64,000 nt of DNA from Candidatus Obscuribacterales bacterium (GTDB lineage Bacteria; Cyanobacteriota; Vampirovibrionia; Obscuribacterales; Obscuribacteraceae), in contig JAGVKG010000031.1 in NCBI GenBank assembly GCA_020050685.1, positions 1 to 64,000 on the forward strand, read 5' to 3'. The translations under genes and the position numbers were made by a program. Within the stretch, counting starts at the first letter, position 1, and the number at the start of each line of letters is the position of its first letter. The notes under the pieces are model-generated. The model searched no databases and had not been told where the DNA came from. It saw only the letters and a program-made list of their open reading frames with translations. Of this stretch, positions 3,280-37,513 are shown piece by piece.

Positions 3280-6200
3280 TTAGGTCCCGAGGCTATAGAG
3301 CATGCCGTGCTGAGCAAAGTAAATGTGTGGTTTGCAGGCGATATTGGCAATTTTTTGAATGTCTTGGACGTATTGAGATAGTTGAGAGTGATGACTGTGA
3401 GCATGAAAGTCAATGTCAGATAGATCGAAATGATCGGTTTTGAAATCGATTACATGCCACTGACCAAGTTCGTCCTGCAAGAGCAAGTCGGGACGTCTGG
3501 TATCTACTCGATTATCAGCTGCCACCATATATGGTGTCTCGTGGTATCTGGTTCTGGCATTTTGCATCAGGGACAAAAGTGGGCTGGCAAAAAATTTGTC
3601 TAAAAGATACTCGCCATCCTTAAGCAATAATTCCAACATCTGATTTTCGACAATGGCAATTTCGTTTCCGGAGGCAATTTCGATTAAGTCTTGGCGCGAT
3701 GGTTTGGCCAATTTGCCTTGCAGGCGTTGCATGATGGCGTGGAAGAAATTACCAATTACTGTCGGATGAATTTTGATTTCGCTTGTGGCTGGTGTGATGC
3801 GAAGCATTGCTTGCCAGGAAGATTTTGGCACGGAGATTGGTCGAGCTATTGGTTCAAGCAAATCAAGTTCGGCAAAGCCAGGACGCAGGTCTTGCTTTTT
3901 GAGATTGCTCACCAGGTGATTATCTTTTGACAGAGACTCCAGTTTTGCCTGATCAATAAACTTCAGGAGATAAGATCCTGAAGGCAATTGGATTTTTTTG
4001 TCCGATTGAAAGTCATAGTCTTCCAATTGTAAGAAATCCCAAAGCCAGCGCCGGAAAGAATAATAATCGCGAGCTTCGCTTGCCGCAAAAAATGCCAGAT
4101 AATCCCGTGCGCGAGTCATGGCAACATAGAAGAGTCTTTTCTTCTCGGCAATTTGCATGTCTTTGTCTAAATATCTAGCAATGCGATAAGAGCCCGGTTT
4201 TTCTTCGCGATTACGAGTGGTATCAAATGCCAAACCAAATTCACGATGGAAAATCAGCCGATTACCTCTTTCCTCTGAAGTGTTAAGCACGGGCAGAATG
4301 ACAGCCGGAAACTCCAAGCCTTTCGAGGCATGGATTGTCATAAGCTTGACGGCTTGACGGGAATCTAATGGTGCGTCAGCAACTTTGATATTCAGTGCAC
4401 GCATGTCTTCCAGACTGACCAAAAAATCTTTGATGGGCAACATGCTATTTTCTTCGGCAAGATGAATGAAGCGCCAGAGATTCCTTGCCCTCTGATGACC
4501 ATCCGGCAGAGCCAATAGACTAATATCAAATGATGTGTCGTGTATGATTTGAGCGACAAGCTCAGGCAAAGGTTTCGAACCGGAATGTTTGAGCAGGTTT
4601 GCTAAAACCAAAACTGCATTCTCAATAATTTCTAGGTCTAATGCCTGATTGTCTCTCAGTTGGAGAAGAGTCTTCCAAAGCGATTGTGTTCTGCCTTGGG
4701 CTAAGCCATGCAAGAGATCGTCGGATAAGCCAAACATTGGTGATCTAAGTATGGCAAAAAGGGATTGCGAGTCCTCAGGACAAGCTAGGAATGCCAAGGC
4801 ATTTTCTAAATCGTAAATTTCTTGCCTGTCCAGAAACCCGCTACCGGCTGCCGCAACATAAGGAATCTCAGCGTTAGCCAGTGCTTGAGCAATTGGTTTG
4901 AAATCTTTATTGCGTTGGACGAGAATGGCAAAATCGCCAAATTGAATTGGGCGGGTTTGACCGGATATTTGTACGGCGGCCTGACTGTTTATTTTTTCCA
5001 AGATCCAAGCGCAGATGGCTTTGGCTTCGAAGGCGGTGCTTGTATGTGACTCGGAAGGACTGTTGTAGATGATTACTTCGGTGCGACAGGAATCGGGATC
5101 GTCTGTGCGTTGTGGCGATAGGCTTTTGTATTCGGCCCGCCAGGGTGATCTGGGAGGAGTTTCGCTCAGGCTCGTGGGCAAGGGCATCAGTCTGGCGAAT
5201 ATGTCATTGACGAATCCGACAATTGACGGATGACTGCGGAAAGAATCTGAAAGTGATATGTTAAGGCGCGGGCCGGAAATTGACAGACTGTCTTTTGTCT
5301 TTAGATTTTCGGATGTGGTGCTGGCGAGGAATTGTTTCCATTCGTTGAATGTTGAAACATCTGCTCCCTGAAATTTGTAAATAGATTGTTTATCGTCGCC
5401 AATGAAAAAGATGCGAGTCTTTGCTCCAGCCAAGAGCAAGATCAAGCGCGAGAGTAGACGGTTAGTATCTTGAAATTCATCCACCAAAATCGCGGCAAGC
5501 TTGTTGTTATAGTTTGATTTGGCCTCTGAGCCTGCCTTGGACAAAAGATCATATGTCAGTTTGATTAGGTCGTCAAAGTCTAATTTCTGCAGGTGGTGTT
5601 TCTTGTCCTTATAAATTTGAATTGTTTGATTGGCCAAATTAGCCATAGCTCGAATGCAGGCAAAGGCTGCGTTGTCCGTATCATCTATCCGGCTTGGTAG
5701 ATCAGAGAGCAATTGTTTGATTACTAGTTTTAGCTCGGCAATTTTAGCCCGCATTTCTTTTGCTTTTTCGCTGGGTCCGCCGGCGGTGCCAACTTTGATT
5801 GCCAAAAGCGCGCGCAAATCGTCAATCGATTCGGCCAGCTCGTCTTGCGAATGTACAGAGCCGCGTGCTTTTGATAATGTCTTTTCGGCAATCGCGATAA
5901 TTTGTTTGCGGTAACCTTCAAGCTTGTCCGGTGCAGACGGCTTGCCAGGATCTCTTGGACTTTCTCTCAGATATTCAAGATTCTCTAGCCATCTTTGATC
6001 TTGGGAAAGCTCAAAAATGATATTTGCCTGTAGTTGCGTTAAGAGGAGAGAAAAATGTTGAGCCAGATCTTGATCGGATAAACCAAGCAAGGCTTGTTTT
6101 GCTTCATCAAACTGCAGAGGAGAGCGCACTAAAGAACCAATCAATTGCTTGATGGTGTCAGGCGGATAATTAAGTAGGAGCAAGTGCTCTTCGTTTAAAT

Positions 6201-6654
6201 CGGCCGATACTCTGAGTAAAGATTCTTCAATACTTGCATGCAGTGCTTCGGCTCGCTCAAGTTCATCCAAAATTTCGAAACCGGGATCGATACCTGCTTC
6301 TGCCGGATTGGCGCGCAAGATAGATTCGCAAAGCGAGTGAATTGTGCCAATCGGGGCCAGATCAATTTCTTGCCGCAGTTGATACCATCTGTCTTTGGAG
6401 GAGTCATCGAGAGATTCAGCTTTGAGCAGGGTCTCGATTTTTTGTTTTATGCGGCTGCGCATTTCGGCAGCCGCTTTTTTTGTGTAAGTAACAGCAATCA
6501 AATTGTTGGGGCGTAAGTCCGGGTTTTGCTGCAAGATGTGTATGTAGCGGTCAACCAGAACGCGTGTTTTGCCCGAGCCGGCGCCAGCAGAAACGAGAAC
6601 GTTGCTGTCTACCGATTCGACAGCCAGTCTTTGATTTGTGGTTAGTTCACTCAT
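3280..6654 (-). CDS. addA: AddA-type helicase-nuclease subunit
   Basis: This 1124-residue UvrD-superfamily (SF1A) helicase has a C-terminal RecB-type nuclease. Visible motifs are Walker A SAGAGSGKT near residue 25, motif II VDEFQDTN near 390, motif VI FYVAMTRARD, and the nuclease motif HVIDFKTDH near 1068. With AddB it would form the AddAB complex, which resects double-strand breaks and prepares the 3' end for RecA. The ATG at 6654 fits the family N-terminus and overlaps the end of addB by eight bases, indicating translational coupling. Further in-frame starts upstream lie inside addB and add only non-family sequence. Confidence 0.93.
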   Translation of the reverse strand: MSELTTNQRLAVESVDSNVLVSAGAGSGKTRVLVDRYIHILQQNPDLRPNNLIAVTYTKKAAAEMRSRIKQKIETLLKAESLDDSSKDRWYQLRQEIDLAPIGTIHSLCESILRANPAEAGIDPGFEILDELERAEALHASIEESLLRVSADLNEEHLLLLNYPPDTIKQLIGSLVRSPLQFDEAKQALLGLSDQDLAQHFSLLLTQLQANIIFELSQDQRWLENLEYLRESPRDPGKPSAPDKLEGYRKQIIAIAEKTLSKARGSVHSQDELAESIDDLRALLAIKVGTAGGPSEKAKEMRAKIAELKLVIKQLLSDLPSRIDDTDNAAFACIRAMANLANQTIQIYKDKKHHLQKLDFDDLIKLTYDLLSKAGSEAKSNYNNKLAAILVDEFQDTNRLLSRLILLLAGAKTRIFFIGDDKQSIYKFQGADVSTFNEWKQFLASTTSENLKTKDSLSISGPRLNISLSDSFRSHPSIVGFVNDIFARLMPLPTSLSETPPRSPWRAEYKSLSPQRTDDPDSCRTEVIIYNSPSESHTSTAFEAKAICAWILEKINSQAAVQISGQTRPIQFGDFAILVQRNKDFKPIAQALANAEIPYVAAAGSGFLDRQEIYDLENALAFLACPEDSQSLFAILRSPMFGLSDDLLHGLAQGRTQSLWKTLLQLRDNQALDLEIIENAVLVLANLLKHSGSKPLPELVAQIIHDTSFDISLLALPDGHQRARNLWRFIHLAEENSMLPIKDFLVSLEDMRALNIKVADAPLDSRQAVKLMTIHASKGLEFPAVILPVLNTSEERGNRLIFHREFGLAFDTTRNREEKPGSYRIARYLDKDMQIAEKKRLFYVAMTRARDYLAFFAASEARDYYSFRRWLWDFLQLEDYDFQSDKKIQLPSGSYLLKFIDQAKLESLSKDNHLVSNLKKQDLRPGFAELDLLEPIARPISVPKSSWQAMLRITPATSEIKIHPTVIGNFFHAIMQRLQGKLAKPSRQDLIEIASGNEIAIVENQMLELLLKDGEYLLDKFFASPLLSLMQNARTRYHETPYMVAADNRVDTRRPDLLLQDELGQWHVIDFKTDHFDLSDIDFHAHSHHSQLSQYVQDIQKIANIACKPHIYFAQHGMLYSLGT

Positions 6655-32178: not shown

Positions 32179-32973
32179 GTGATCTCTGTGAAAGTTTCTG
32201 GTTCGACAAATTTTGGAAGAGCTAAGGCGGCAATTTCTCTAGTTGTGCTTGTGTTTGTGGGCGCGGGAGCTTATGCAGAAACTGGCTTGGGAACTAAGAA
32301 CGGGCAAGTAGGCCGGGCAAGTAAACAAGTAGCGTCGGCAAGTTATACAGAAAAGAAGATCGATCCGGTTCCCTACTACAAACGTGGTTTGGCTTACATA
32401 ACTGATAAAAAGTACGATGAAGCCGCCGATGAATTCAAACAAGCGCTCGATTGCAATCCGCATTATTACCAGGCATGGGTAAAGTTGGCGCTTGTTTATC
32501 AGCTCACTGGTCAGACAGATCGAGCAATTGACGAGTACAAAAAGATTTTGGAGTTGAGACCGGACATGGCTGATGCTCATGTTAATCTCGGCATTCTCTT
32601 GAGAGAAAAACGTCAGGACAGCCAAGCCTTGACTGAATTTCGCAAAGCAATCCAGATGAACTATTACTCTCTGGCTGCACATTACAACCTGGGTAATTTG
32701 CTTGCCAGCAACGGATATTTGAAAGAAGCTCTGCGCGAATTCCAAACATGTTTAACAATCAGTACTGATGCTGCACCGGAAAGTGCGCGTGTCCACAACA
32801 ATATCGGCGTGATTTATCAAAAGAGTCGATACCTGGAAGAAGCGGAAGAAGAATTTCTCAGAGCGTTAGTTCTGGATCCAGGCAACAAGACGTTTGAGAG
32901 CAATTTAGCTCTAGTGCGCCGCCAATTAAACAAGAAGCCGGTTGGTGCTTACGTCAAGCAATTGAATTTGTAA
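32179..32973 (+). CDS. Exported TPR-repeat protein
   Basis: The protein has 264 residues. It starts with a signal peptide or anchor (hydrophobic ISLVVLVFVGAGAYA) and then about five TPR units from residue 65 to 250, with typical patterns such as AWVKLALVYQLTGQTDRAIDEYKKILEL and AHVNLGILLREK. It has the appearance of a periplasmic protein-interaction scaffold. The GTG start has no clear Shine-Dalgarno and an alternative GTG lies three codons on. It is divergent from the ClC gene. The partner is unknown. Confidence 0.8.
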   Translation: MISVKVSGSTNFGRAKAAISLVVLVFVGAGAYAETGLGTKNGQVGRASKQVASASYTEKKIDPVPYYKRGLAYITDKKYDEAADEFKQALDCNPHYYQAWVKLALVYQLTGQTDRAIDEYKKILELRPDMADAHVNLGILLREKRQDSQALTEFRKAIQMNYYSLAAHYNLGNLLASNGYLKEALREFQTCLTISTDAAPESARVHNNIGVIYQKSRYLEEAEEEFLRALVLDPGNKTFESNLALVRRQLNKKPVGAYVKQLNL

Positions 32974-33002
32974 CGAATGATTCATTGTCAACGCATAGCT
33001 AT

Positions 33003-33092
33003 GTTGTCATCCTGAGCACAGCGAAGGATCTCTCATAGCGTTTTGTTGAAACATGAGAGGTCCTTTGTCGCGCTTCGCGCTCCTCAGACATG
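33003..33092. repeat. Long imperfect palindrome (GTCATCCTGAG family), full copy
   Basis: The left arm starts GTCATCCTGAG and ends GGATCTCTCAT. The right arm runs CATGAGAGGTCCTTTGTCG to GCTCCTCAG and is its approximate reverse complement. A transcript would fold into a hairpin of about 90 bases. The 3' half recurs at 61943-61995. Similar sequences are familiar as dispersed intergenic repeats in many bacteria. This copy abuts the 5' break of the VirD4-like pseudogene. Confidence 0.8.
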
Positions 33093-33093
33093 G

Positions 33094-34026
33094 AGGACAT
33101 GCAGGATCTTTACTTCGGAACGGCAGCAGCCAGGCAGCAAGCCGGGCACAAAATTTGTACGTTCAATCCAACTGATATGGCTTCAACCAGAATCAACCCG
33201 ATCGACAGAGTAAGAAACAAGCAATCGAGTTGAACTCGAAGCCGAAGCCTTAGCGGAACTTTTGATTTCAAATTCTTCCAAGGGAAACGCAAGAGTAGAT
33301 CCGATTCGCAGAAAGGCATGCTGTTTATACTCATCTTGCACGCGGTGCGCACCACGCTTATGAAAGGGCGGAATTGTTTGCGCAAGATGCTAAAAGGCAG
33401 CCCATGCAAAACCGCCGAAGAAGAATATGTCGCAATCAAAATGAACTCGTCGGAAAACTGGCGCTACCCCTGGCTTGTGCAAAAGTTGACACCGTGGTTG
33501 ACGCAACAGATCGTCAGCCTTACATGCAAATCTGATGTTGATGCCGAGCAGTCATGAAACGAGCTCTTCATGTTTTACCTTTCGGTGCCGCCACGCCGAC
33601 GAGACTTGAAAGCCCTAATCAGTTTGATATTCAATTACTTTTTAAACCTGGCTTTGGAAAGACACTTCACGTATCCGCTTGCGTTGATGCTTGACGAATT
33701 TACCAATTTTGGACACATACCAGGATTCACCGACACGTCAACAGTCATTCGCAAAACTGGCATCGGAGCGGTGCTGGGCTTTCAAGACTATATGTAGCTA
33801 CAGAAAGTTTATGGCGATGTTGACGCAACAATCATATTTTTGCAGCCAGGTACAAGAGTATTTTTCAGACCGAGAGCATTTCACACAACAAAGGAAATTG
33901 ACATCGAGCTTGGACCGGCCACAATTGAGCATGTGAGAATTACCGAAACCGGACGGACTGATACACCAGGGAGATCGACGGTTTGAACCGGATGAGGAAG
34001 AACAGCCGAAGAAGAAAGAAAGATAG
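33094..34026 (+). pseudogene. Decayed VirD4/TraG-type conjugative coupling protein
   Basis: Fragments in order across changing frames match the type IV coupling protein family. They are ARQQAGHKICTFNPTDMAS...RINPID (33094-33233), LELEAEALAELLISN with GNARVDPIRRKA (33232-33363), MLFILILHAVRTTLMKG (33318-33557), and LALMLDEFTNFGHIPGF with IGAVLGFQDYM (33570-33797). After an in-frame stop come LQKVYGDVDATIIFLQPGTRVFF (to 33938) and a final charged tail. The Walker B aspartate-glutamate is still readable (LMLDEF). The N-terminal membrane and Walker A part is absent. At least three frameshifts and two stops show it is dead, probably the trace of an integrated conjugative element. Confidence 0.8.
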
Positions 34027-34062
34027 AGGATTGCCGGAGTCCGATTTACAACCGTTGTCAAA

Positions 34063-34278
34063 TTACTGGGTTTCTTTTTGCTTTTGTAAGTCGAGAAGCA
34101 TGTTGCCTCGATAATGGATTTTTGTCCTGATTTTTTCTGCGCTGAAGTCCAGATCGATATTTTGGCTCATTGCCAAAACCACTGCTGCAAATCCCAGAGC
34201 TTGCAAGGCCCATTGCATTATTGGTGTGAAAAGACTTGCTAGCGTTGGTGTTTGAAGATTCTTCTCAGGTGGCTCCAT
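34063..34278 (-). CDS. Small single-span membrane protein, unknown function
   Basis: The protein has 71 residues. AGGAG lies seven bases before ATG 34278, so this start is firm; longer readings run back into the divergent regulator. One hydrophobic segment (PIMQWALQALGFAAVVLAM) is followed by a charged tail with DLDFSAEKIRTKI. I recognise no family. It is divergent from the XRE regulator and probably shares its operator region. Its size and membrane helix could suit an effector or immunity role, but that is speculation. Confidence 0.6.
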   Translation of the reverse strand: MEPPEKNLQTPTLASLFTPIMQWALQALGFAAVVLAMSQNIDLDFSAEKIRTKIHYRGNMLLDLQKQKETQ

Positions 34279-34305
34279 AATGCCGCTCCTAGATATATTC
34301 GATAA

Positions 34306-34323
34306 TCGCATATTATTATGCGA
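34306..34323. promoter_or_regulatory. Operator-like palindrome in divergent region
   Basis: TCGCATA-TTAT-TATGCGA is a perfect inverted repeat between the small membrane protein gene and the XRE regulator. The half GATAATCGCATAT reappears as GATAAGCGCATAT at 34366-34378, suggesting two binding sites for one protein. Confidence 0.5.
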
Positions 34324-34360
34324 AAATATCTCTTGTGTGTCAAGCCTTTTTGCGTTATGG

Positions 34361-34392
34361 TATGTGATAAGCGCATATATGTTTTTCACATA
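34361..34392. promoter_or_regulatory. Second operator-like site upstream of XRE regulator
   Basis: TATGTGA (34361-34367) and TCACATA (34386-34392) form a perfect inverted repeat with an 18-base spacer that contains GCGCATATATG. It lies just before the regulator's ribosome site, as expected for autoregulation. Confidence 0.45.
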
Positions 34393-34408
34393 TACGGAGG
34401 ATGGAAGA

Positions 34409-34789
34409 ATGGAGTGGCATGAATTTGGGCAACGTGCTCGGAAGCGCCGCGAGGATCTAAATATCTCGCAGCAAGAGATTGCAAACGCGCTCGGCATTGA
34501 TCAAGCGAAAGTTAGCTTGATTGAGAAAGGCGCTAGAAAAGTTGATCTTATTAAGGAGATGCCAGTGTTGGCAAAGGTGCTTCGCTGCTCGATTACTTTT
34601 TTGGTGCAGGATGAAACTGGGCCCGTAACAGATGACAATGACCCTATTAAACGGCTCATGCAGCAATATTTTCCAGGGGTGCAATTTGAAGAATTTGAAA
34701 TGCGACGGATCGCGCAATTCCTTGAACCCGTATTGCAGTCTTATGTTAAGAGTAGTCCCGAATTAAAAAAGAAAGTAACTAATGAATGA
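34409..34789 (+). CDS. XRE family transcriptional regulator
   Basis: This 126-residue protein has an N-terminal Cro/CI-type helix-turn-helix (residues about 6-62: RARKRREDLNISQQEIANALGI, then QAKVSLIEKG). The C-terminal part, from about residue 70, is a helical domain with FPGVQFEEFEMRRIAQFLEPVL. ATG 34409 is preceded by GGAGG and GGAAG. It is followed after eight bases by the coiled-coil protein gene, so the two are likely co-transcribed and controlled by the palindromes upstream. Confidence 0.85.
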   Translation: MEWHEFGQRARKRREDLNISQQEIANALGIDQAKVSLIEKGARKVDLIKEMPVLAKVLRCSITFLVQDETGPVTDDNDPIKRLMQQYFPGVQFEEFEMRRIAQFLEPVLQSYVKSSPELKKKVTNE

Positions 34790-34797
34790 GGTGATTG

Positions 34798-35436
34798 ATG
34801 TCAAAACGAGAAAATGAAGCCCAGCAAAAAATATACAATTTTACCGAAAGAATTCGTAACGTTGCCGAAGCAGCCGAAATGCCTGCCGACAGTCAAACTG
34901 GGCAACTGAAATTTCTCAATATAACGCCTGAATTGCAACCACTTGCAGATTTCTTTGCAAACAAATTTGAGGCTCAACAACAAGCCAATCAAACCCTTTC
35001 AAGTCAAGTTGGGCGTCTTAGCAATAGTGTTGCTAACTTAGCTGCAAAAATGGAAGATAAAGTAGTGCATGATAAAGCCCCTGATCTAGTGATAAGTCCC
35101 TTCTCTGATCCAGATGCGGCGGATGTTGCTTATGTTGATAGTGCATTGCCCGCTGAAGCCTGGTATCCGTGCACGACTGCGGATTTGGCTGGGCTTGTTG
35201 AACTAACTGCCAGCAGGCTCGGATATCTCTTCAGATTGGCTGGTATTCAAGGCAATCCGAAATTTCACTATCCTATAAGAACTGGTAAATCTGGCGTTCT
35301 TCAGCGATACCGTGCTACTGCTTTACGTGAATTATTTGATAAGGCTCGCGCTGGTAAAGTCAATGGCATAAAGCAATACGAGCTTGAGAAGCTAGAAAAA
35401 TATTTCCGTCTCCACCAATTGTTCGAGAACAAATAA
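34798..35436 (+). CDS. Coiled-coil protein of unknown function in accessory cassette
   Basis: The protein has 212 residues. Residues 1-90 are helical with a coiled-coil look (FEAQQQANQTLSSQVGRLSNSVANLAAKMEDK). Residues about 120-212 form a compact alpha-rich domain starting AWYPCTTADLAGLVELTASRLGYLF and ending in a basic helix (KQYELEKLEKYFRLHQL). That domain could bind DNA, but I recognise no family. It follows the XRE regulator directly (GAGGTG as ribosome site). No signal peptide or membrane segment is present. Confidence 0.65.
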   Translation: MSKRENEAQQKIYNFTERIRNVAEAAEMPADSQTGQLKFLNITPELQPLADFFANKFEAQQQANQTLSSQVGRLSNSVANLAAKMEDKVVHDKAPDLVISPFSDPDAADVAYVDSALPAEAWYPCTTADLAGLVELTASRLGYLFRLAGIQGNPKFHYPIRTGKSGVLQRYRATALRELFDKARAGKVNGIKQYELEKLEKYFRLHQLFENK

Positions 35437-35788
35437 ACATACGTATCATATACGATACCATATATAAAAGCTGCTGGCCTCTGGACAAATAAAAAAGAGG
35501 GTCTCAGCGTGAAGCGGCTTATAACAAAGCGCATAATTGAGTCGGATAATTTTTGATATAGAATTATCGGACAACCAAAATGGCAAAATTGTCCTCGTAA
35601 TTCAAAAACAAGCAAATGGCCGTCAGGTACAAGCCTTGAAAGCCTCATTCTGTGGGCGTCGCTCATGAAAATGAAATATAGTACTTATTATCGGGCAATA
35701 ATTGGCAACATCAGGAAACAAGGAGATTTTTAGCTTCTTCAGCAGGGTATGTCAGTTTAGTAAGCTTCCTTGCCTGAGGGTTACAAAA
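35437..35788. other. AT-rich spacer with repeats before the NYN-CSD gene
   Basis: These 352 bases hold no convincing gene. They contain the palindrome CGTATCATATACG (35442-35454), embedded in a GTATC/GATAC repeat, and two near-identical TTATCGGACAA/TTATCGGGCAA boxes at 35564-35574 and 35688-35698. A 22-codon frame at 35665-35733 is too short to support. The region probably contains the promoter of the next gene. Confidence 0.5.
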
Positions 35789-36733
35789 ATGACGGATTCT
35801 GCGAAACTAACTCGTGTTGGCGTTTTTTACGATGGAAATTTTTTTCTACATGTTAGCAACTATTATTGCTATCAGCACGACCGGCGTGCCCGTATTAGCA
35901 TTGAAGGATTGCATAACTATATCAGGCAAAAGGTAGCGGATGCGGAGTCAACTGATGTTAGACACTGTCAAATCGTTGACGCTCACTATTTCCGTGGCAG
36001 ACTACCCGCAGATGAAGCTCAAGAGCGTGATTTGCTCTATAGGGAGCGCGTCTTTGACATGGTTCTTATTGGAGAAGGGGTTGTCACCCATTACCTGCCC
36101 TTAGCTCCGACGGGTGAGAAAGGCATTGATGTATGGTTAGCGCTGGAAGCGTTAGAGTTAGCAATTCTAAAACGGTTTGATGTCGTAGTTCTTATTGCTT
36201 GCGATGGCGACTATGTTCCTCTGGCTCGGAAGCTAAATACTTTGGGAGCCAGAGTAATGGTTTTGGGATGGGATTTTAAATTCACGGATAATCAAGGGTA
36301 TGAGCGACAAACTGTAACAGCTCAGAATCTAATTAACGAAGTTACCTATCCCACCATGATGAACTCAGTCATCGATGATAAATCGAACAAGGAAAACAAC
36401 CTGGTGAATGGCCTTTTTTATAGGCCAACAAAAAACAAAGCTCCAGTAATGCCACGCGCGGAATTGTTTCCAAAACAATCAGGTGAAAGAGAAAATGGAT
36501 CTGTTCATTCGATTAAGCCTGGATACGGCTTTGTTACACCAGATACCGGTGGCGAAAACCTGTTTTTCTTCTACTCGGAGGTTCTAAATGTCGACTTCAA
36601 CGACCTAAAGCAAGGTGAGCGCGTTGAGTTTACTAGAGGAACAAATGAAAAGGACCTGCAGAAGAGGCCCTGTGCCCTAGACATAGAGGTCATGCGTGAC
36701 TCCAAGAAGGCCCTAGCTTCTACTGCTGTGTGA
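35789..36733 (+). CDS. NYN-domain nuclease fused to a cold-shock domain
   Basis: This 314-residue protein has two recognisable parts. Residues about 8-190 are a NYN/LabA-like PIN-fold ribonuclease domain with acidic motifs GVFYDGNFF, KGIDVWLALEAL and ACDGDYVPLARKL. Residues about 235-305 are a cold-shock-type OB fold with RNP1-like PGYGFVTPD and RNP2-like ENLFFFYSEV. The expected activity is cleavage or processing of RNA bound by the CSD; this follows from the families and is not shown. ATG 35789 has GAGGG nine bases upstream. Longer readings add non-family sequence. Confidence 0.82.
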   Translation: MTDSAKLTRVGVFYDGNFFLHVSNYYCYQHDRRARISIEGLHNYIRQKVADAESTDVRHCQIVDAHYFRGRLPADEAQERDLLYRERVFDMVLIGEGVVTHYLPLAPTGEKGIDVWLALEALELAILKRFDVVVLIACDGDYVPLARKLNTLGARVMVLGWDFKFTDNQGYERQTVTAQNLINEVTYPTMMNSVIDDKSNKENNLVNGLFYRPTKNKAPVMPRAELFPKQSGERENGSVHSIKPGYGFVTPDTGGENLFFFYSEVLNVDFNDLKQGERVEFTRGTNEKDLQKRPCALDIEVMRDSKKALASTAV

Positions 36734-36739
36734 ATTAGG

Positions 36740-36776
36740 AAAAAAGAAATCCCGTGATCAAATCGGCTCACGGGAT
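36740..36776 (-). terminator. Rho-independent terminator, - strand
   Basis: A perfect 9-bp stem ATCCCGTGA/TCACGGGAT with a 10-base loop is followed on the - strand by TTTCTTTTTT. A second hairpin CCGGG-GAATA-CCCGG (36790-36804) precedes it on that strand. It would end transcripts from the gene at 36938-37453, and the stem may also serve the NYN gene from the other side. Confidence 0.65.
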
Positions 36777-36937
36777 CAAAAGCCCATCACCGGGGAATAC
36801 CCGGCTACCTTATATCTTCTTTTCCTATTTTATTAGGTTTTGAAGGACTAACCTATTAGAGCTAGTCATATATATCCTAGCATGCTGTGTCTTCTCTGCA
36901 AAGCGGATTTAAGGCTATTTTTAGGCTTTTATGGGCT

Positions 36938-37453
36938 TTATACGTACTTCCAAATGCATTGGCCGACCAAAACTTTGTTTTTAATATATTTCGGAAAAGC
37001 TGGGAACGCACTCATAAATTTCCATCGAACCTCGTCTGTGTTCGAGCGTGGCTCTAACCAGACAAGGTAGCTTTCCCGTTGCGCTACGTAGACGCGATTT
37101 GGCGTTCCGGGGCGACCACTGGCTGATACAACTTCCCAGCATGACGAACTAGGTATCTCCCCTTTTATGAGATGTCCTATCCATCTGACACGCTCTACTC
37201 TCTCATCGTCAAGCACGTCTTTACGCTTCGGATAGAGGGTATAGTTGCTCGATTTATAGAATGCGTGGTCGAATGTTGTGCCGTGAAAAATGACCTTTTC
37301 GCCATCATGCAGTGTGTGAATGCCAATATTTTTTCCAGCCTGCAATAGATAAAGCTGCTTGTATAAATCCCAACCTTGCTTGCGTTTGTCCTCTTGAGTC
37401 AGTCCGCGTAAAACTAGTTTGATACTTAGTAGGTCAATTTGCTCGATGTTCAC
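36938..37453 (-). CDS. Uncharacterised protein, possible BECR-fold nuclease
   Basis: This 171-residue protein has no signal peptide. The central segment VIFHGTTFDHAFYKS, followed by DDERVERVRWIGHLIKG and a late beta segment RVYVAQRESYLVWLEP, resembles phage-type Barnase/EndoU/Colicin/RelE-like (PBECR) nuclease domains by its order of conserved His, Arg and Trp residues. This is a weak, by-eye similarity. The GTG start lacks a clear Shine-Dalgarno. It sits at the edge of the accessory segment, downstream of a secreted protein gene on the same strand, and no antitoxin is apparent. Confidence 0.5.
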   Translation of the reverse strand: MNIEQIDLLSIKLVLRGLTQEDKRKQGWDLYKQLYLLQAGKNIGIHTLHDGEKVIFHGTTFDHAFYKSSNYTLYPKRKDVLDDERVERVRWIGHLIKGEIPSSSCWEVVSASGRPGTPNRVYVAQRESYLVWLEPRSNTDEVRWKFMSAFPAFPKYIKNKVLVGQCIWKYV

Positions 37454-37513
37454 CGGGTTATGATTTTGATCCTTTCCGTTGCAGCCGCAAGATTAACCGG
37501 CCCCACCAGATTG

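Follow-up and report, generated by a model that had tools for sequence, protein, structure and literature searches.

A predicted single-gene RNase family in which an NYN nuclease domain is joined to a cold-shock domain

What might a gene do that joins a nuclease domain to a cold-shock domain (CSD) in one protein, and how does such a gene come to sit where it does? The example considered here lies in the window, by which we mean the whole 64,000-nucleotide stretch analysed from contig JAGVKG010000031.1 of a Candidatus Obscuribacterales bacterium; its features are collected in Table 1. The open reading frame begins with an ATG that has GAGGG 8 nt upstream and ends with the stop codon at 36731–36733; this start is preferred over the alternative longer one (TTG, 35702) because the homologues begin near the ATG. 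The G+C content of the gene (0.448, compared with 0.468 for the window) gives no sign of a foreign origin. A preliminary description had placed an NYN nuclease and an OB fold together in this one protein, an arrangement that the reading frame, the Pfam matches, an AlphaFold2 model and the homologues all confirm.

The N-terminal half is recognized as NYN by Pfam (PF01936; 3.2e-14, 54.1 bits against a curated cut-off of 24.2), as are 57 of 57 homologues, and both the family alignment and the AlphaFold2 model extend the conserved module past the Pfam match to about residue 212 (base 36424). The model, computed with 57 sequences (mean pLDDT 90.5, pTM 0.73), contains both folds at high confidence. 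Its NYN half adopts a PIN-like Rossmann-type alpha/beta fold, for which Foldseek returned Vpa0982 (PDB 2qip) as the top match (E = 6e-7). Vpa0982 is a single domain of ~165 residues with 20% identity to the window NYN, and in a profile alignment D114 and D139 coincide with its DxV and DGD aspartates. Counted over 73 aligned sequences, three of the four acidic residues are invariant and the fourth, D139, is kept in all except the divergent homologue L071, which has Asn at this position. The acidic motifs first noticed in the window protein thus hold across the family, and loss of catalytic acids was not seen in any homologue counted apart from this single substitution. The alignment also shows FYDGN.F.HVSNYY, VDAHYFRGR and GEKGIDVW, stretches specific to the family, to be conserved about as strongly as the catalytic acids. 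Of the original label "NYN/LabA-type", the first part agrees with Pfam and 2qip, and the second fits only roughly: matches to the LabA/NYN models of NCBIfam and PADLOC are weak, with the NYN family TIGR00288 giving a partial match of 22.5–23.5 bits, below its cut-off of 178.

The C-terminal half is a five-strand OB fold in the model, matched by the Pfam CSD family (PF00313; 2.6e-10, 40.5 bits against a curated cut-off of 27; residues 236–288) and, in Foldseek, by many cold-shock protein (Csp) structures after 2qip. The OB fold with RNP-like motifs that had been proposed is present in the model, its absence was not seen, and 56 of the 57 homologues match the Pfam CSD. Besides the aromatic residues of RNP1 and RNP2, F270 is conserved (89% in the family alignment); position 261 within RNP2 is His in 60% of homologues, while Phe, the residue of the window protein, has a share of 27% overall. 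The conserved CSD aromatics cover what we take, by our own mapping, to be the nucleobase-stacking positions F15, F17, F27 and F38 of Bacillus subtilis CspB. The position of CspB W8, mapped in the same way, is non-aromatic in most family members, so that the affinity for RNA may differ from that of CspA-type proteins. The domain resembles these proteins in its OB fold and its RNP1 and RNP2 motifs and differs from them in forming the C-terminal module of a predicted nuclease, in not keeping the W8 position, and in an RNP2 that reads LFFH or LFFF. Cold-shock domains bind single-stranded DNA too. The conserved RNP residues make it plausible that the CSD chooses which RNAs are cleaved. The two halves are connected by a disordered linker, which ranges from 16 to 166 residues in the family (median 31); given this variability a rigid docking of the two domains is improbable, and the placement of the NYN relative to the CSD in the model is uncertain at the pTM obtained. 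In Methylococcaceae homologues (L037, L039, L041, L044 and L045) the linker consists of ~100–166 low-complexity residues.

Table 1. Features of the NYN-CSD gene and its surroundings (window positions), with the NYN-only genes in the numbering of their own loci
Feature	Position	Strand	Basis or remark
NYN-CSD gene, 314 aa	35789..36733	+	ORF and domain matches; start from homologue alignment
NYN domain, Pfam match, residues 9–162	35813..36274	+	Pfam
Predicted catalytic D15 codon	35831..35833	+	Asp in 73/73
Predicted catalytic D114 codon	36128..36130	+	Asp in 73/73; aligns with Asp of KGDWDV in 2qip
D139-G140-D141 codons, DGD motif	36203..36211	+	D139 72/73, D141 73/73; aligns with SGDGDF of 2qip
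Disordered linker, residues 213–232	36425..36484	+	Low pLDDT
Cold-shock OB-fold domain, residues 233–301	36485..36691	+	Pfam, AlphaFold2, Foldseek
RNP1-like GYGFV, residues 245–249	36521..36535	+	G245 96%, Y/F246 98%, G247 99%, F248 100%
RNP2-like NLFFF, residues 257–261	36557..36571	+	F259 96%, F260 100%
Accessory islet, 4.5 kb, holding the NYN-CSD gene	32974..37513	.	Between TPR gene and 37514–38341 gene
NYN-only gene, L118	~5909–6560	-	Sister protein without CSD
NYN-only gene, L119	4168–4815		Sister protein without CSD
NYN-only gene, L092	5743–6417		Sister protein without CSD

Three homologues (L092, L118 and L119), 45–48% identical to the window NYN, carry no CSD and stop only a few residues away from the conserved F210 that closes the NYN module. 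In the tree they split from all 73 fusion proteins with a support of 91, which is not decisive. From this sister group the CSD seems to be a module and the NYN able to exist without it, and the group offers a natural control for the contribution of the CSD. The L118 and L119 genes sit between genes that appear, by eye from their translations, to be LOG-like and rhomboid-like.

Among bacterial NYN nucleases, Rae1/YacP of Bacillus subtilis is a ribosome-targeted endoribonuclease that acts on mRNA and has no CSD; set beside it by description, the window protein is likewise a bacterial NYN protein, predicted to be a nuclease, and differs in carrying a CSD. Proteins that join DUF88 (LK) nucleases to OST-HTH domains, and in some bacteria to S1/cold-shock-type OB folds, were described by Anantharaman et al. 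in 2010 (PMC2848206). The present family shares with them the union of a PIN-like nuclease with RNA-binding domains and differs in lacking OST-HTH (no match in the window protein at E values up to 1) and in keeping a short NYN-linker-CSD layout across many phyla. A fusion of DUF88/NYN with a cold-shock-type OB fold was already noted in 2010, and the family described here extends a known enzyme type. A CRISPR-associated NYN protein of Bacteroides fragilis is reported (PMC11346440) to be a Mn-dependent, sequence-nonspecific ssRNase that uses D13/D118/D143 and is inactive as D13A. The window family has the same NYN fold and matching aspartates: D114 and D139 correspond to D118 and D143 of that protein and to the 2qip residues numbered D92 and D115, and D15 corresponds to D13/D14 on our own assignment, made from its location where the first strand ends. 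The Bacteroides fragilis protein belongs to a type III CRISPR locus, and the passages considered mention no CSD, whereas the window family is solitary. No prior report on the NYN-CSD family was found in the literature searched, coverage of which is incomplete and leaves domain-architecture databases outside, and the family remains, as the preliminary description had it, without an assigned role.

Our preferred reading, which we hold to be likely, is that the protein is a solitary, horizontally spread endoribonuclease, dependent on metal, specific to single strands and held on unstructured RNA by its CSD. The N-terminal, PIN-like NYN domain would bind a divalent metal via D15, D114, D139 and D141 and would cut single-stranded RNA; the C-terminal CSD, on its flexible linker, would bind unstructured RNA via the RNP1/RNP2 aromatics, and, by raising the local concentration of substrate, could lead to the cutting of unfolded or untranslated transcripts. 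RNase biochemistry is the likely part of this prediction, metal-dependent ssRNA cleavage being carried over from relatives; a substrate preference supplied by the CSD, and a role in stress or transcript turnover, we infer only. The family offers a clean, testable predicted RNase that is encoded by one gene and brings along an RNA-binding module; cultured bacteria are among its carriers, and if the CSD does select substrates it would represent a simple route for bacteria to make targeted RNases. The solitary character is seen in the gene neighbourhoods: shared-neighbour clustering yielded no recurrent neighbour gene outside single lineages, so the gene behaves as a unit by itself, and the immediate, second and third neighbours are mainly housekeeping genes.

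Relatives are encoded at 75 genome loci and, at full length, on one viral contig. Full-length ORFs are present at 71 of the genome loci, under ~15 phylum labels and mostly 45–63% identical to the window protein, and all the carrier genomes examined (8/8) contain the full-length gene once. The fusion, with its active-site acids intact, occurs in ~1% of the bacterial genomes sampled (several phyla). It is full-length in 2 of 244 host-phylum genomes, where the remaining matches are to the CSD only, and was not found in 59 relatives; the family of the second carrier has it in 1 of 50 genomes, and other sampled sets gave 5 of 369 (two NYN-only) and 2 of 297. The gene can settle within a lineage, since among 80 relatives of one Phaeodactylibacter there are 17 carriers (one NYN-only), and the cultured carriers include Ectothiorhodospira, Derxia, Marinilabilia, Desulfatibacillum and Phaeodactylibacter. 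Phylum labels are intermixed in the NYN-CSD tree, which, together with the rarity of the gene, points to horizontal transfer; we do not put a number on the transfers, since part of the labels come from MAG titles, where binning errors may have occurred. On an IMG/VR contig (L002, 3465–5927) the NYN-CSD gene stands immediately after a tyrosine integrase gene, so that an integrating element may carry it along as cargo. A general link to integrases was rejected: the viral contig aside, a similar protein lies within 8 kb at two loci only. Matches in phage and plasmid collections were also rejected as NYN-CSD, being to the CSD part only, like stand-alone cold-shock proteins.

The very strong conservation of HVSNYY and VDAHYFRGR, in addition to the catalytic acids, suggests a specific partner or substrate, and some NYN/PIN relatives process RNA. 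Both observations would suit an enzyme that processes one particular structured RNA, be it a tRNA, an rRNA or an sRNA, and whose CSD opens this substrate in the role of an RNA chaperone. We consider this unlikely: a universal processing step is ruled out by the small fraction of sampled genomes that carry the gene, and no RNA gene or Rfam match lies close to it in the window, where tRNAs were the only RNA elements found by Rfam and a loose threshold added nothing credible.

The accessory genomic position claimed for the gene is confirmed, in that the islet holding it separates genes that lie side by side in relatives. In ~30 of the 35 relatives compared, the TPR gene (32179–32973) and the 37514–38341 gene adjoin convergently, and 20 of these have no more than 200 bp between the two (pairing read from coordinates and checked on 13 loci). 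Some relatives have other stretches of 0.6–2.1 kb between the same flanks, indicating a variable site; no direct or inverted repeats of at least 10 bases were found at the islet ends. Apart from the NYN-CSD gene, the islet contains an HTH gene, the gene starting at 34795 (not found in the 35 relatives) and a gene matching PDC-M04B. The latter (36938–37453, minus strand) encodes a 171-aa protein without a Pfam family, and its match to this PADLOC candidate defence model is at 1.2e-13.

A variable islet with such a neighbour, a patchy distribution with phylum mixing, and a viral-contig homologue adjoining an integrase would all be consistent with a standalone anti-phage or stress-shutdown RNase that is triggered by infection or damage, breaks down RNA of the cell or of the phage, and is transferred as defence genes are. 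Known defence systems also include NYN and CSD proteins, namely an NYN in CRISPR (PMC11346440) and a CSD in the retron Se72 effector model, a weak match. However, matches to known or candidate defence models are few among the immediate and the second and third neighbours (raw counts), most of which are housekeeping genes, and the PADLOC NYN defence models match the window protein only weakly. On the raw neighbour counts a defence island is not favoured, and we regard the defence role as improbable. We are similarly doubtful of a bolder proposal, that the protein is a self-contained, cross-phylum RNA-decay/immune effector and one-gene mobile unit in which the CSD would sense ssRNA exposed by arrested translation or by cold, or ssRNA of phage transcripts, and would license cutting by the NYN. 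A toxin of a toxin–antitoxin pair, to which the PIN-like RNase fold and the HTH gene pair upstream (34280–35436) might point, is very improbable, because solitary behaviour argues against it, no small adjacent conserved partner was found in the family, and a gap of 352 bp separates the NYN-CSD gene from its upstream gene in the window.

That upstream pair, an HTH regulator gene on the plus strand followed after 5 bp by a 213-aa gene not found in 35 relatives, may form a separate two-gene unit. On the other side of the NYN-CSD gene, a 9-bp perfect hairpin with a 10-base loop and a T-rich tail on the minus strand (36749–36776) could mark the end of the 36938–37453 gene; it was missed by the terminator scan, probably because of its 10-base loop.
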